This document shows, piece by piece, positions 9,283 through 52,838 of a stretch of DNA of 64,000 bases. The notes beneath the pieces were generated by a model that had not been told where the DNA came from, did no database searches, and worked only from the letters and a program-made list of their open reading frames with translations. Source of the stretch: Streptomyces sp. NBC_01431 (GTDB taxonomy: Bacteria; Actinomycetota; Actinomycetes; Streptomycetales; Streptomycetaceae); assembly GCF_036231355.1 (NCBI RefSeq), contig NZ_CP109496.1, forward strand, positions 6,200,001-6,264,000, read 5' to 3'. The translations under genes were made by a program, and so were the position numbers. Each line of letters begins with the position of its first letter. Position 1 is the stretch's first letter.

Positions 9283-9314
9283 GGCCGCCCGGAGGCCGTT
9301 GCCTCCGGGCGGCC
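9283..9314 (+). terminator. Strong intrinsic-type terminator after the 7772 gene
   Basis: GGCCGCCCGGAGGC and GCCTCCGGGCGGCC form a perfect 14-bp stem with a CGTT loop, followed by TTTCGCTT. It isolates the upstream gene from the RNA and ro60 locus. Confidence 0.85.
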
Positions 9315-9382
9315 TTTCGCTTGCCGCCGTCCGTCGTCGCCGCCCGGAAAACACTTGGCGTGCCGTCAGGCGCTCCCTCTAT

Positions 9383-9520
9383 GGTCGTTCTCGTCCGGGT
9401 GCGCAGGCACGACCTACTTCCACTGTTAATGGGGAGGCCGCGGGTTCGAATCCCGCCGCCGGTGCTCGTACCGGTGTAGCTCAGAGGCAGAGCACCAACT
9501 CGTCGGTTTTGCCGCCCAGT
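9383..9520 (+). ncRNA. Y-RNA-like RNA with circularly permuted tRNA module
   Basis: A T-arm (GCGGG, loop TTCGAAT, CCCGC; 9440-9456) is followed at once by CGCCGGT (9457-9463), a GCTCGT loop, and ACCGGTG (9470-9476). These two 7-mers pair fully (one G-U) as an acceptor stem closed by a hairpin loop. Then come TA and a D-arm (GCTC, loop AGAGGCA, GAGC; 9479-9493). The order T-arm, acceptor, D-arm is a permuted tRNA; no second T-arm follows. The module is enclosed by GGCACGACC (9406-9414) pairing with GGTTTTGCC (9505-9513): 8 of 9 pairs, one of them G-U. tRNA-mimic Y RNAs encoded beside Ro60 genes are known in bacteria (YrlA type), and a TROVE gene follows here. Ends are estimates; the outer Ro-binding helix could not be settled by eye. 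Confidence 0.75.
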
Positions 9521-9584
9521 TCTCCGGACACCCACACTTCATTCGTTTTTGTGCACCTCCCGGTGCGCAGGCCGCGGCTACTTC
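9398..9584 (+). repeat. Imperfect direct repeat flanking the tRNA-like module
   Basis: GGTGCGCAGGC-n5-CTACTTC occurs at 9398-9420 and again at 9562-9584; 18 of 23 positions agree, all differences lie in the central five bases, and the period is 164 bp. The first copy contains the 5' strand of the Y-RNA stem; the second lies in the leader of ro60 and has no tRNA-like module after it. Confidence 0.7.
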
Positions 9585-9634
9585 TTCGCAATGAAATCCG
9601 CCGTCGCCGAATTGATCTCGGGAGGCCATTCACC

Positions 9635-11212
9635 ATGGCTCGGTTCAATCTGCGCGCCACCAGGAAGCGCCCCACGTCGCCGGTCGCGTCCACCGGCGTC
9701 GCCGCCCTCACCCACGAGGGCGGTGCGGGCCGGCTGCGGGACGCCAAGTCGGAACTCTTCGTGCTGGCCGTCGCCAACTTCGTCGCGCAGCGGACCTTTT
9801 ACGAGACCGGCGCGGCCCGCGACGACCGGTTCGCGACGCTGGTCCGCAAGCTCGCCGTCGAGGACCCCGAGTGGACGGCGGGGCTGCTCGGCTGGCTGCG
9901 CGGCGAGGGCGGACTGCGTACCGCCTCGATCGTCGGCGCCGCCGAGTACGTCAAGGCCCGCCTGGACGCGGGCACTTCGGACGGCCCCGCCAACCGGCAG
10001 GTCGTCGCCTCGGTGCTGCTGCGCCCCGACGAGCCGGGCGAACTGCTCGGGTACTGGACCGCCACGTACGGCCGCGCCGTTCCCAAGCCCGTGAAGCGGG
10101 GCGTCGCCGATGCCGTACGCCGCCTCTACAACGCGCGGTCGCTGCTGAAGTACGACACCGCGTCGAAGGGTTACCGGTTCGGCGACATCCTCAACCTGGT
10201 GCACGCGGCGCCCGACCCGGCCAGGCCGTGGCAGGGCGAGTTGTTCCGGTACGCGCTCGACCGCCGCCACCACCCCGACACCGCGGTGCCGCCGGCCGGG
10301 GACCCGGTGCTGAGCGCGCACCGGGCGCTGATGGCCCTGCCCGTCGGGGAGCGCCGGGCCGTCGTGCTCGCTCCGGACGGAGCCGAGCGGCTCGCGGCGG
10401 CGGGGCTGACCTGGGAGGCACTCGCGGGCTGGCTCCAGGGACCGATGGACCGGGCGGCCTGGGAGGCGGTCATCCCGTCGATGGGCGCGATGGCGCTGGT
10501 GCGCAACCTGCGCAACTTCGACGAGGCGGGCGTCTCGGACGAGGTGGCGGCGCGGGTGGCCGCGAAGGTGTCCGACCCCGAAGCCGTCGCGAAATCACGG
10601 CAGTTCCCCTTCCGCTACCTCGCCGCGTACCGCCACGCGCCCTCGCTGCGCTGGGCGTACCCGCTGGAGCGTGCGCTGGGCCACTCGCTGGCCAACGTGC
10701 CCGCCCTCGGCGGCCGGACACTGGTCCTGGTCGACCGTTCGGGCTCGATGTGGTCGCCGCTCTCGGAGCGCTCCCGCCTCAACCGGGCGGACGCCGCCGC
10801 GATCTTCGGTACGGCGCTGGCGCTGCGGGCGGCCGACGCGGACCTCGTGCAGTTCGGCACGGGCAGCGCGCCGGTCACCCACCGGGCGGGCGAGTCAGTC
10901 CTGAAGGTCCTGGGCCGCTTCGGCGACCTCGGCGGTACGAACACGGCCGACGCGGTGCGGCGGCACTACCGGGGGCACGACCGCGTGCTGATCGTCACGG
11001 ACGAACAGACGTCGTACGGCGGCGACCCGACCAGCCTTATTCCTGCCGAGGTCCCGGTGTACACGTGGAACCTCGCGGGCTACCGGGTCGGCCACGGCCC
11101 GTCGGGCGACGCGAACCGCCATGTGTTCGCGGGCCTGACGGACGCGGCGTTCCGCATGGTGCCGCTGCTGGAGGCGGGCCGGGACGCACGCTGGCCGTGG
11201 ACGGCGCCCTGA
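9635..11212 (+). CDS. rsr: TROVE domain protein (Ro60/Rsr ortholog)
   Basis: A 525-aa Ro60-type RNA-binding protein of usual length. The ATG at 9635 has GGGAGG about 8 nt upstream. The N-terminal two thirds form the helical TROVE ring (LFVLAVANFVAQRTFYETG, LGWLRGEGGLRTASIVGA, DILNLVHAAPD). The C-terminal third is a vWA-like domain with an intact MIDAS motif, VDRSGSM (D367). Ro60 binds Y RNAs and the 3' ends of misfolded or decaying RNA, often with PNPase or other nucleases. The RNA at 9383-9520 immediately upstream is its expected partner. The MFS gene converges from the other side. Confidence 0.92.
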   Translation: MARFNLRATRKRPTSPVASTGVAALTHEGGAGRLRDAKSELFVLAVANFVAQRTFYETGAARDDRFATLVRKLAVEDPEWTAGLLGWLRGEGGLRTASIVGAAEYVKARLDAGTSDGPANRQVVASVLLRPDEPGELLGYWTATYGRAVPKPVKRGVADAVRRLYNARSLLKYDTASKGYRFGDILNLVHAAPDPARPWQGELFRYALDRRHHPDTAVPPAGDPVLSAHRALMALPVGERRAVVLAPDGAERLAAAGLTWEALAGWLQGPMDRAAWEAVIPSMGAMALVRNLRNFDEAGVSDEVAARVAAKVSDPEAVAKSRQFPFRYLAAYRHAPSLRWAYPLERALGHSLANVPALGGRTLVLVDRSGSMWSPLSERSRLNRADAAAIFGTALALRAADADLVQFGTGSAPVTHRAGESVLKVLGRFGDLGGTNTADAVRRHYRGHDRVLIVTDEQTSYGGDPTSLIPAEVPVYTWNLAGYRVGHGPSGDANRHVFAGLTDAAFRMVPLLEAGRDARWPWTAP

Positions 11213-11270: not shown

Positions 11271-12707
11271 CTAGCGCCGCCCCCGGATCACCACCGCGGC
11301 CACCAGCACCGCGGCGAGCGCGATGCAGGCCCCCACGCCGAACGCGCTCGTCGCCCCCAGTGTCAGCAGCTCCGCCGGGCTGTCGGCCGAGTGCCGCGTG
11401 GCCGTTCCCGCGACCGTCACCAGGACCGACAGGCCCAATGTGCCGCCCAGCCACTGAAGCGTCTGGAGCAGTCCGGACGCGGCGCCGGCCTGCTCCGGGG
11501 TGACCCCGGTCAGGATCGCCGCATTGAGCGGCATGAAGCTCAGGCCCACCCCGGTGCCGAGCACCAGCATCGGACCGAGCAGCCCGGTGGCGTACGAGCC
11601 GGTGGGGCTGAGCCGGGTGAGCCAGAGGGCCGCGAGGGTGATCAGGGTCATCCCCGTGACGAGCACGGGCTTCGGGCCGTGGCGCTGGAGCAGTCCGGGC
11701 ACGAACCGGAGCACGGTGAACATCGCGAAGGTCAGGGGCAGGAAGGAGATTCCCGCCCGCAACGGACCGTAGCCGAGCACGTGTTGCACGTACTGCGTGA
11801 GGAAGAAGAACGCGCCGAACATCCCGGCGGGCAGCAGCAGGATATCGAGATAGGCGCCCGCGCGGTTGCGGTCGGCGAAGAGCCTCAGCGGGGCGATGGG
11901 CTGACGGGCCCGTGATTCGACGTACACGAACAGCGCGAGGAGAACTCCGGCCGCGGCGAAGGAGAGTTGGGCGAGCGCATCGCTCCAGCCGCTTTCGGCG
12001 ACGCGTACGAAGGCGTACACGAGGGCGGTCATTCCGGCGGTGCCGGTGACCGCTCCCGCCGCGTCGAAGTGGCCCGCGCGGCGCGGGGTTTCGCGGACGA
12101 AGCGGGGCAGCGCGACGGCGACCGCGGCGCCGATGGGCACATTGATCAGCAGGGCCCAGCGCCAGGACGCCCAGGCCGTGAGCGCGCCGCCGAGCACCAG
12201 ACCGAGGGACGCGCCGATGGAGGCGACCGAGGTGTAGATGGAGAGGGCGTGGTTGCGGCGCGGGCCCTCCTCGAAGTTGGTGGTGATCAGGGCGAGGGTG
12301 CTGGGCGCGGTGAGCGCCGAGCCGACGCCCTGGAGCGCGCGGGCCGCGAGCAGCCAGCCGCCGTCGCCCGCGACTCCGCCGAGCAGGGAGGCGAGGGCGA
12401 AGACCGTGACGCCGACGGCGAGGGTTCGCCGGCGTCCCGCGATGTCACCGATCCGCCCGCCGAGCAGGAGTAATCCGCCGAAGGTGAGGGTGTAGGCGTT
12501 GAGCACCCAGGACAGCGCGGCTGGGCCGAAGTGCAGATCGCGCTGGATGTCGGGCAGGGCCACGTTGACGACGGTGGAGTCGACGCCGACCATCAGGTAG
12601 GCGGTGACGATCACGGCGAGTACGGCGCCGGGGCGTCCGGTCCGCGGCGCCCCGGCCGCGGTGCGGCGCGGGGGTGCGGTGGAAGGGGCGGCTGGCGTGG
12701 TCGACAT
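11271..12707 (-). CDS. MFS transporter, DHA2/EmrB-QacA-type efflux pump
   Basis: A 478-aa, 14-TM drug-efflux type MFS protein. Typical motifs are visible: DSTVVNVALPDIQRDL in TM1, GGRIGDIAGRRRT (motif A) and the TM5 region with SIGASLGLVLGGAL (motif C-like). The start at 12707 (MSTTPAAPS) has GGGAG upstream; the longer upstream frame is rejected. It is divergent from a TetR gene, with a 51-bp inverted repeat covering the gap. Regulation by TetR and export of an inducing toxic compound are inferred; the substrate is unknown. Confidence 0.88.
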   Translation of the reverse strand: MSTTPAAPSTAPPRRTAAGAPRTGRPGAVLAVIVTAYLMVGVDSTVVNVALPDIQRDLHFGPAALSWVLNAYTLTFGGLLLLGGRIGDIAGRRRTLAVGVTVFALASLLGGVAGDGGWLLAARALQGVGSALTAPSTLALITTNFEEGPRRNHALSIYTSVASIGASLGLVLGGALTAWASWRWALLINVPIGAAVAVALPRFVRETPRRAGHFDAAGAVTGTAGMTALVYAFVRVAESGWSDALAQLSFAAAGVLLALFVYVESRARQPIAPLRLFADRNRAGAYLDILLLPAGMFGAFFFLTQYVQHVLGYGPLRAGISFLPLTFAMFTVLRFVPGLLQRHGPKPVLVTGMTLITLAALWLTRLSPTGSYATGLLGPMLVLGTGVGLSFMPLNAAILTGVTPEQAGAASGLLQTLQWLGGTLGLSVLVTVAGTATRHSADSPAELLTLGATSAFGVGACIALAAVLVAAVVIRGRR

Positions 12708-12765
12708 GTTCAACTCCCGGTATGCGTGACCCGGTTGAACGCGGGCAGCACGAACCGCCCGCAAA

Positions 12766-13477: not shown

Positions 13478-14701
13478 TCAGGAGGATGCCTTGGCCAGCA
13501 CCAGGCTCACGTTGTGCCCGCCGAACCCGAAGGAGTTGGCGAGCGCCGCATCCCAGGATCCCGTGCGGTTGCGGCCCGCGGCCACGTCGAGTTCGACCGC
13601 CGGGTCGAGGTTGTCCAGGTTGCGGGTTGCGGGCACGGTGCCGTCGCGCAGCGCGAGCAGCGCGGCGATCGCGCCAACCGCGCCGGAGGCGCCCAGCATG
13701 TGTCCGGTCATCGACTTGGTGGCCGTGACCACCGGATGCCTGCCGATCGCCAGGGCCACCGCCTGCGCCTCGGCGAGGTCGCCCGACGGAGTCGAGGTGG
13801 CGTGCGCGTGCACCACGCCGATGTCCGACGGGCCCAACCGGGCGTCCCGCAGCGCCGATTCGATCGCCCGCACCTGACCGGCCACGTCGGAAGCGGTGAT
13901 GTGGTCCGCGCTGGAGGTGACGGCGGCGCCGGCCACCGAGCCGTACACCCGCGCCCGCCGCGCCCGCGCGAACTCGGCGCGCTCCAGCACGAGCAGGCCC
14001 GCGCCCTCGCCCATGACGAAACCGCTGCGGTCGGCGTCGAACGGCCGGGACACCGACTCCGGGTCCTTGTCCTGGGTCGACAGCGCCTTCATCTGCGCGA
14101 ACGCGGCGATCGTGAACGGGTGCACACAGGCCTCGGTGCCGCCGGCCACCACGACGTCGGCCCGCCCGGCGCGGATCAGATCCAGCCCCATCGCGATCGC
14201 CTCGGCGCCGGACGCGCAGGCGCTGACCGGGGTCCGGGCGCCGCCCTGCGCGCCGAGTTCCATGGACACCCAGGCTGCGGGCCCGTTCGGCATCAGCATC
14301 GGCACGGCGTACGGAGAGAGCCGCCGGGCGCCGCTCTTCTCGAACGTGTCGTCCTGGCTCAGGGTCGTCAGGACGCCCCCGGTGCCGGTGCCGATCACCA
14401 CCGCGAGCCGCTCGGGTGCAACCTCCGGGGCGCCCGAGTCCCGCCAGGCCTCGCGGGCGCTTATCATCGCGAGTTGTTCACACCGATCAAGCTTGCGTGC
14501 CTCGACCCGGGCGAGCAGCAAGCTTGGGTCCACCGGCAGCCCGGCGGCGACCCGGACCGGCAGCCCGGCCCCCCACTCCTCCTCGATCAGCCGGACCCCG
14601 GACGCTCCGTCCAGCATTCCTGCCCAGGTCGTAGCGGTATCCACGCCGAGCGGGGTGATCGCGCCGAGCCCGGTGACGACTACTTCTCCAAGATCACTCA
14701 T
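13478..14701 (-). CDS. Beta-ketoacyl-ACP synthase II family (FabF-like)
   Basis: A 407-aa condensing enzyme with an intact Cys-His-His triad: C162 in VSACASGAEA, H300 in VHAHATSTPSGD and H334 in KSMTGHMLGASG, with K329. It elongates acyl-ACP with malonyl-ACP. No ACP, KASIII or malonyltransferase gene lies nearby, so it is a stand-alone FabF paralog rather than the main fatty-acid operon gene. Its 5' side carries G-rich tandem repeats. A flavoprotein gene lies upstream on the same strand. Confidence 0.85.
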   Translation of the reverse strand: MSDLGEVVVTGLGAITPLGVDTATTWAGMLDGASGVRLIEEEWGAGLPVRVAAGLPVDPSLLLARVEARKLDRCEQLAMISAREAWRDSGAPEVAPERLAVVIGTGTGGVLTTLSQDDTFEKSGARRLSPYAVPMLMPNGPAAWVSMELGAQGGARTPVSACASGAEAIAMGLDLIRAGRADVVVAGGTEACVHPFTIAAFAQMKALSTQDKDPESVSRPFDADRSGFVMGEGAGLLVLERAEFARARRARVYGSVAGAAVTSSADHITASDVAGQVRAIESALRDARLGPSDIGVVHAHATSTPSGDLAEAQAVALAIGRHPVVTATKSMTGHMLGASGAVGAIAALLALRDGTVPATRNLDNLDPAVELDVAAGRNRTGSWDAALANSFGFGGHNVSLVLAKASS

Positions 14702-52682: not shown

Positions 52683-52838
52683 GTCCGCGCCCTGGTACGA
52701 CGTGACCGGCGGTGAGAGTTCCTGGCTCGCGGGGATCGCTCCCCGGTGACAGTGGCGGGACCGCGCCGGATTCGCACCGGCTTCCTCTTCTGCCGCCGTA
52801 GCTGGCCGGTGCAGTCCACCACGCTGCGAGAACACCCG
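52683..52838 (-). promoter_or_regulatory. Cobalamin riboswitch
   Basis: Read on the minus strand, the core is classical: AGGAAGCCGGTGCGAATCCG followed by a GGTCCCGCCACTGT segment (the GCCACTG B12 motif lies at 52756-52750) and, further on, GAGCCAGGAACTC (52728-52716). It lies between the phosphate-transport genes and cobD and would repress the cobD-cobQ-chelatase-cobO-cobB operon when adenosylcobalamin is plentiful. Exact ends are estimates. Confidence 0.93.

Follow-up and report, generated by a model that had tools for sequence, protein, structure and literature searches.

A candidate Y RNA upstream of ro60 in Streptomyces probably carries a complete, circularly permuted tRNA

We analyzed a 64,000-nucleotide (nt) stretch of DNA from Streptomyces sp. 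NBC_01431 (contig NZ_CP109496.1, positions 6,200,001 to 6,264,000), here called the window, and focused on the region upstream of its ro60 gene. The locus appears to encode a Y RNA of the YrlA type, the Ro60-binding stem of which would bear a complete tRNA, permuted between tRNA positions 26 and 27, as a tether for tRNA-binding partners. From the sequence comparisons described here, we put the probability of this reading at about 80%. Behind it stand the anatomy of this RNA, which we call class A1, its compensated conservation, its genomic association with Ro60, a promoter box kept among relatives, and constraints that follow a tRNA-like pattern. A literature search found no paper on Ro60 Y RNAs in Streptomyces.

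Results

Anatomy of the class A1 Y RNA

The features of the locus are collected in Table 1. Read from 5′ to 3′, the head of the window copy consists of an anticodon arm, a variable loop, a T arm, the 3′ strand of the acceptor helix, a 6-nt loop, the acceptor 5′ strand, and a D arm. By its sequence, this head is a complete tRNA circularly permuted by a cut between positions 26 and 27, and not a three-arm module. ARAGORN reported no tRNA in the unrotated window sequence. A preliminary description of the locus had recognized the permuted order from T arm to D arm, which can be read at 9440 to 9493, together with seven acceptor pairs (one of them G-U), the T loop TTCGAAT, and the GG pair of the D loop (G18 and G19; D stem, 9479-9482/9490-9493), all of which are present. 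It had also placed a helix around the module (9406-9414 with 9505-9513), which exists with one C × U mismatch (9410/9509), and had correctly named the adjoining gene as TROVE/Ro60. Its span of 9383 to 9520 was too short, as the outer stem (9393-9399/9523-9529) extends beyond 9520. The closing loop GCTCGT, which it had thought worth describing, is not conserved among homologues and varies from 5 to 8 nt with many sequences. Its assignment to an established class of tRNA-mimicking Y RNAs stands for the Ro60-linked, permuted YrlA type; the extra intact anticodon arm, the family of paralogues, and the B element described below had been missed.

Comparative support for the whole RNA

Homologues were gathered from the region preceding ro60 in 80 named Streptomyces records and yielded an A1 alignment of 59 sequences. 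In this alignment, 99.7% of the cells were paired, 13 pairs had changed on both sides, and none of 500 shuffles was as good. Compensatory changes in the T arm, acceptor, and D arm, on which the preliminary description had made its reading depend, were retained. The two terminal helices were 99.5 to 99.8% paired, again with compensatory changes, and form a stem from the ends of the RNA as in YrlA. Moreover, the outer stem covaries between classes (for example, GTCCAGG/TCTGGAC and TGCCCGG/TCGGGCA). Of 68 Streptomyces genomes with an intact Ro60, 59 had a match to the full-length A1 model, compared to 0 of 53 genomes without one (Fisher P = 3e-25).

Geometry and constraint of the anticodon arm

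In 57 of the 59 homologues, the Y stem is separated from the T arm by exactly 22 nt, which make up a stem of 5 bp, its 7-nt loop, and a variable loop of 5 nt (positions 27 to 48). The anticodon helix was 100% paired in the alignment, and two of its pairs had changed on both sides: A31-U39 became G-C in four sequences, and C30-G40 became G-C in three. The loop consensus is C U N N U A A: C32 occurs in 57/58, U33 in 58/58, U36 in 55/58, and A38 in 59/59 sequences. U8, A14, G15, C48, G19, C56, T54, and A58 were invariant across the homologues, so that the tertiary partners U8-A14, G15-C48, G19-C56, and T54-A58 are all preserved. On the ro60 gene tree, the triplet had changed at least 30 times (19 times at position 34, mostly by toggling between G and C, and 15 times at position 35), and no change was found at positions 33, 38, and 48; stem positions 30/40 and 31/39 changed together. 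A strictly defined arm (5 bp, 7-nt loop, U33, and A38) was present in 57 of the 59 homologues versus 0.1% of shuffled arms, and RNAalifold predicted the anticodon arm unprompted. Read from the alignment and the tree, the pattern of constraint on the A1 head is tRNA-like, the frame being kept while the triplet drifts.

Several observations weigh against a whole-tRNA head. The A1 homologues are akin to one another, so the counts given above are not independent. The window copy alone folds weakly by energy (z scores of -1.45 and -1.67), and its acceptor helix is displaced in the minimum-energy fold, being recovered in 56 of the 59 homologues. The anticodon arm appears in only 20 of the 59 minimum-energy folds, and its two basal pairs are invariant U-G wobbles that lie within a UACUUC motif common to all three Y classes. 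Part of the arm may consequently be conserved for Ro60 binding and not for tRNA mimicry. ARAGORN recognized a tRNA in 58 of the 59 rotated heads, but when the anticodon arm was shuffled, 93% of the heads still passed, 60% of them being given a definite isotype in the same control. Since most heads with a shuffled arm pass as well, these calls carry no weight on the arm and were discarded as proof of it. Single-sequence folding gave weak support and was likewise set aside as proof of the A1 structure.

The Rfam YrlA model and tandem tRNA genes

The preliminary description had proposed a search with the Rfam YrlA model (RF02553). The window A1 RNA does match, at 32.1 bits, below the gathering score of 69. 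Because of this low score and the poor energy fold of the window copy, the case rests on the comparative evidence. None of 297 genomes of the taxonomic class reached the gathering score, and in our view the cut-off reflects the limits of the curated model and is not a defining biological feature. RF02553 matches A1 copies only in the middle (24-84 or similar). The permuted T arm, acceptor, and D arm of YrlA and its ro60 neighbor are both found in A1; the three-arm head of the Rfam consensus is not, as an intact arm occupies 9418-9434. A1 is therefore filed as a variant of YrlA and not as an ordinary member.

In the same genome, a tandem pair of tRNA-Asn genes scored 39.1 bits with the Rfam model, above the window Y RNA. 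An Rfam match alone thus cannot identify a Y RNA, and we rejected it as sole evidence. These genes (G000:C1:5611924-5612074; loci L001 and L189) have a junction that mimics a permuted tRNA, and such tandem tRNA-Asn junctions are systematic and the main false positives of Rfam YrlA searches in Streptomyces. The A1 class has gone unannotated because Rfam misses it at the cut-off and tandem tRNAs score higher. Positions 30-108 of model R1, the permuted tRNA part, also match real tandem tRNA junctions at about 57 bits (for example, L001); the head thus equals two neighboring tRNAs cut between 26 and 27. A derivation of the window head from the tandem tRNA-Asn genes was hinted at by their linkers (GCTCGA versus GCTCGT). 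This origin is unsupported, since the nearest tRNAs vary by species and Asn merely ties with Thr for the window.

Paralogous Y RNAs

The 81 loci that we classified comprise about 50 with the order A1-B-A2 (three with a reduced B), 18 with B-A2, 8 with A1-B, including the window, 2 with A1 only, and 3 with B only. Fuzzy "no T arm" labels in this classification were judged mostly spurious and disregarded, except for loci L034 and L035. Class A2 is not present before ro60 in the window. Like A1, it combines a Y stem with a permuted tRNA, and RF02553 matches it end to end; unlike A1, it is a three-arm RNA that resembles a permuted tRNA-Arg(ACG) (one example being identical at 58 of 70 positions) and is cut inside the anticodon loop. 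The ends of its module form the anticodon stem, which was 98.8% paired with three pairs changed on both sides. In some species the A2 head is tRNA-Leu-like: a tRNA-Leu-type D arm (GTGGCGGAA..GAAGACGCG) was seen in L037, L044, L062, L079, L097, L105, L146, L150, and others. Some of these heads also carry a long variable arm. By their sequences, they represent an isotype switch of the mimicked tRNA.

Other families of the taxonomic class contain related arrays beside Ro60 with tRNA-Glu-, tRNA-Gln-, and tRNA-Asn-like heads. Across Streptomyces and these families, an intact anticodon arm was found in 27 of 49 distinct modules, versus 0.31 expected. One family (f17; L160, L172, L162, and L125) has Ro60-adjacent Y RNAs with tRNA-Glu- or tRNA-Gln-like D arms and 4-nt variable loops. 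Five Streptomyces genomes each contain a stand-alone Y RNA away from ro60, with a tRNA-Glu-type D arm, an intact anticodon arm, its own -10-like box and, in several cases, a terminator-like hairpin.

The B element and the ro60 ribosome-binding site

Class B, aligned from 70 sequences, contains only two Y stems (99.5% paired, four pairs changed on both sides). Second, short Y RNAs without a tRNA domain occur in other bacteria, and class B resembles them in being a double Y stem only. The B element of the window clade differs from other short Y RNAs in that its 3′ strand doubles as the ribosome-binding site of ro60: in the window and in L033, L034, and L035, this strand, CGGGAGG, lies 9 nt ahead of the start codon. 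B folds in two mutually exclusive ways. In one, a competing hairpin frees the ribosome-binding site from pairing within B; in the other, the Y fold, the site is paired. Protein-free, this closed fold is the less stable of the two by 2.3 to 6.4 kcal/mol. Binding of Ro60 could thus close the site, and autoregulation of Ro60 through this region (9551-9634) is possible. In L034 and L035, from the Streptomyces violascens clade, the A1 tRNA head and 3′ strand are deleted about 130 to 80 nt before ro60; the A1 promoter region, 5′ strand, and B element are retained. The head is thus dispensable at the ro60 locus in that sub-clade.

The ro60 gene and its surroundings

The reading frame starting at 9635, about 105 nt downstream of the A1 Y RNA, encodes a genuine Ro60 by sequence and structural modeling. 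Its product matches Pfam PF05731 (TROVE) at 49.7 bits (cut-off, 23), and a profile search matched human Ro60 and further TROVE chains. The TROVE HEAT-repeat ring and the vWA domain are both present according to Pfam and Foldseek. The predicted structure (mean pLDDT [predicted local distance difference test], 75) gave 13 matches with E values of <0.001, all to Ro60 structures (Foldseek TMt of 0.70 for 2nvo, 0.62 for 1yvp, and 0.74 for 9l5y), and Deinococcus radiodurans Rsr was among them (TM [template modeling] score, 0.70).

The Y RNA and ro60 appear to open a new transcription unit, given the probable terminator of the upstream gene at 9283-9314. The -10 box is kept upstream of A1 in the aligned loci, and the -10 box region of the window gave no match to the sigma-70 consensus. 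No terminator was found between the A1 Y RNA and ro60 in the window. Downstream of ro60, a major facilitator superfamily transporter gene (11271-12764, - strand) adjoins a beta-ketoacyl synthase gene (13478-14701, - strand). A cobalamin riboswitch (RF00174; 48.9 bits) was detected at 52697-52835 (- strand).

Table 1. Features of the ro60 locus in the window and positions of the stand-alone Y RNAs
Feature	Position	Strand	Basis
Probable terminator of upstream gene (14-bp perfect inverted repeat, T-rich tail)	9283-9314	+	Repeat search; weaker match in second scan
-35-like TTGGCG	9355-9360	+	Sequence; weakly conserved in aligned loci
-10 box TATGGT (relatives TAGAGT/TAAAGT), 7 nt 5′ of outer stem	9380-9385	+	Kept upstream of A1 in aligned loci
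Class A1 Y RNA (four-arm YrlA type), whole body	9393-9529 (about)	+	59-sequence alignment; model R1, 140.5 bits (window sequence belongs to R1 training set)
Outer stem, 7 bp, GTCCGGG (5′/3′ strands)	9393-9399/9523-9529	+	Helix 1: 99.8% paired, two-sided changes in 2 pairs
Inner Y stem, putative Ro60-binding helix (5′/3′ strands)	9406-9414/9505-9513	+	Helix 2 of alignment
Anticodon arm, tRNA positions 27-43, TTCCA-CTGTTAA-TGGGG, triplet GUU	9418-9434	+	Alignment, tree, shuffle test
Variable loop AGGCC, positions 44-48 (5 nt)	9435-9439	+	Alignment; C48 and G15 invariant
T arm, positions 49-65 (stem 9440-9444/9452-9456; loop TTCGAAT 9445-9451)	9440-9456	+	Direct reading; alignment
Acceptor 3′ strand CGCCGGT, positions 66-72	9457-9463	+	Helix 5: two-sided changes in 5 pairs
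Closing loop GCTCGT, linking position 73 to position 1	9464-9469	+	Direct reading; sequence not conserved
Acceptor 5′ strand ACCGGTG, positions 1-7	9470-9476	+	Alignment
U8 and A9 (9477-9478), D arm, A26	9477-9494	+	Alignment
Competing hairpin of B, GUGCACC-UCCC-GGUGCGC	9551-9568	+	Minimum-energy fold
Class B short Y-like element, no tRNA module	9556-9625	+	Direct repeat with A1 5′ strand; 70-sequence alignment
GGGAGG, ro60 ribosome-binding site and 3′ strand of B outer stem (pairs with 9556-9561)	9620-9625	+	Sequence, folding, locus comparison
ro60 (TROVE protein, 525 amino acids)	9635-11212	+	Pfam TROVE; Ro60 fold
Stand-alone Y RNAs in five Streptomyces genomes	L223:3529-3674(-), L224:3565-3705(-), L226:3291-3433(+), L227:3340-3483(-), L228:3209-3351(-)

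Discussion

By analogy with known systems, in which the Y RNA stem binds Rsr, and DusA and TruB modify the tRNA-like domain, which also tethers PNPase (PMC8394870), A1 likely acts as a Ro60 tether with a fuller tRNA surface. The RNA would be transcribed from the + strand over about 9393-9529, and Ro60 would hold its double stem. The head could then present the surface of an entire tRNA, which might be bound by modification enzymes, by PNPase, or by enzymes that act on the anticodon, and binding of such a partner may gate or redirect Ro60. The anticodon arm would widen the range of partners beyond that of a three-arm YrlA. Recruitment of tRNA-modifying enzymes, as in those systems, is plausible.

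We consider it unlikely that the RNA is an ordinary three-arm YrlA in which 9418-9434 is an incidental apical stem near the Y RNA internal loop, unrelated to tRNA. The UUC of this stem does lie within UACUUC, a motif that is also found in the tRNA-less class B, U-G pairs at the base of the stem would be uncommon in a tRNA, and most minimum-energy folds lack the arm. However, an incidental stem does not account for the fixed 5-bp/7-nt geometry followed by a 5-nt variable loop, with U33, A38, and C48 invariant, positions 34 and 35 free, and the stem compensated, nor for the recurrence of the same geometry, both in other families and in the stand-alone copies, with other stems, 4-nt variable loops, and adjoining tRNA-Glu-type D arms. 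Conversely, a permuted tRNA gene that is processed at the acceptor loop to a functional tRNA, as in some algae and archaea, would explain why positions 1 to 73 are all present and why the head is up to 72% like tRNA genes of the same genome. Against this stand the turnover of the triplet among close relatives, the presence of C37 in 8 of the 59 homologues, the ordinary tRNA genes for these isotypes already in the genome, and the strict link to Ro60, and we regard this explanation as highly improbable. Since its ends are joined and its triplet drifts, A1 is, judging from the sequence, unlikely to translate.

Two further proposals bear on the role of the RNA and are compatible with a Y RNA that carries a whole tRNA. 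One, which remains tentative, is that A1 and B act mainly as a cis leader through which Ro60 controls its own translation, the B fold of the window clade hiding the ribosome-binding site. The overlap of B with this site, the two exclusive folds, and the retention of B in L034 and L035, which lack the tRNA head, are consistent with this idea; however, the overlap is limited to one small clade, and B lies far from the start codon in most species. The other, somewhat more doubtful and a refinement of the whole-tRNA reading, is that the head is a decoy or bait for anticodon nucleases that spares tRNAs, the changing triplet reflecting changing enemies. The intact anticodon loop with its fast-changing triplet would fit, competitive inhibition of an anticodon nuclease has been proposed for the tRNA-like domain of YrlA (PMC7790460), and developmental tRNA cleavage in Streptomyces coelicolor is mentioned as cited work in PMC8628891. 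Nevertheless, the nuclease partner is hypothetical, no YrlA fragments were seen in Salmonella (PMC7790460), and the changes at position 34 mostly go back and forth between G and C. Extended to actinobacterial Ro60 particles in general, the speculation would be that the complete tRNAs they display, including the anticodon arm, are a bait or decoy for enzymes of the anticodon loop (anticodon nucleases or enzymes that modify A37), with the triplet turned over under selection and the frame kept; we hold it to be similarly doubtful.

With a widespread class of whole-tRNA Y RNAs in an experimentally tractable genus, one can test directly what Ro60 needs a tRNA mimic for. Anticodon arm, acceptor linker, and Y stem can be altered separately, and the relatives L034 and L035 have already lost the head.

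Among known RNAs, YrlA (RF02553; Salmonella YrlA; Chen 2014 and Wang 2018, as reported in PMC8394870) shares with A1 the end stem, the permuted order of T arm, acceptor, and D arm, and the rsr neighbor. YrlA has three tRNA arms according to PMC8394870, and the Rfam consensus structure agrees; A1 differs by its intact anticodon arm, its cut at 26/27, and its sub-threshold Rfam score. Set against that consensus and that description, the anticodon arm is one more than published bacterial Y RNAs are described with. The tandem tRNA-Asn genes of Streptomyces share this permuted order at their junction, where they also have a short linker, and they match R1 30-108, but they are ordinary tRNA genes without a Y stem or Ro60. 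The permuted tRNA genes of algae and archaea, as outlined in PMC3978253 and PMC3218864, resemble A1 in that the 3′ half precedes the 5′ half and the acceptor ends are joined by a short linker. Those tRNAs translate, whereas the A1 head sits in a Y stem near Ro60 and its triplet is not conserved.
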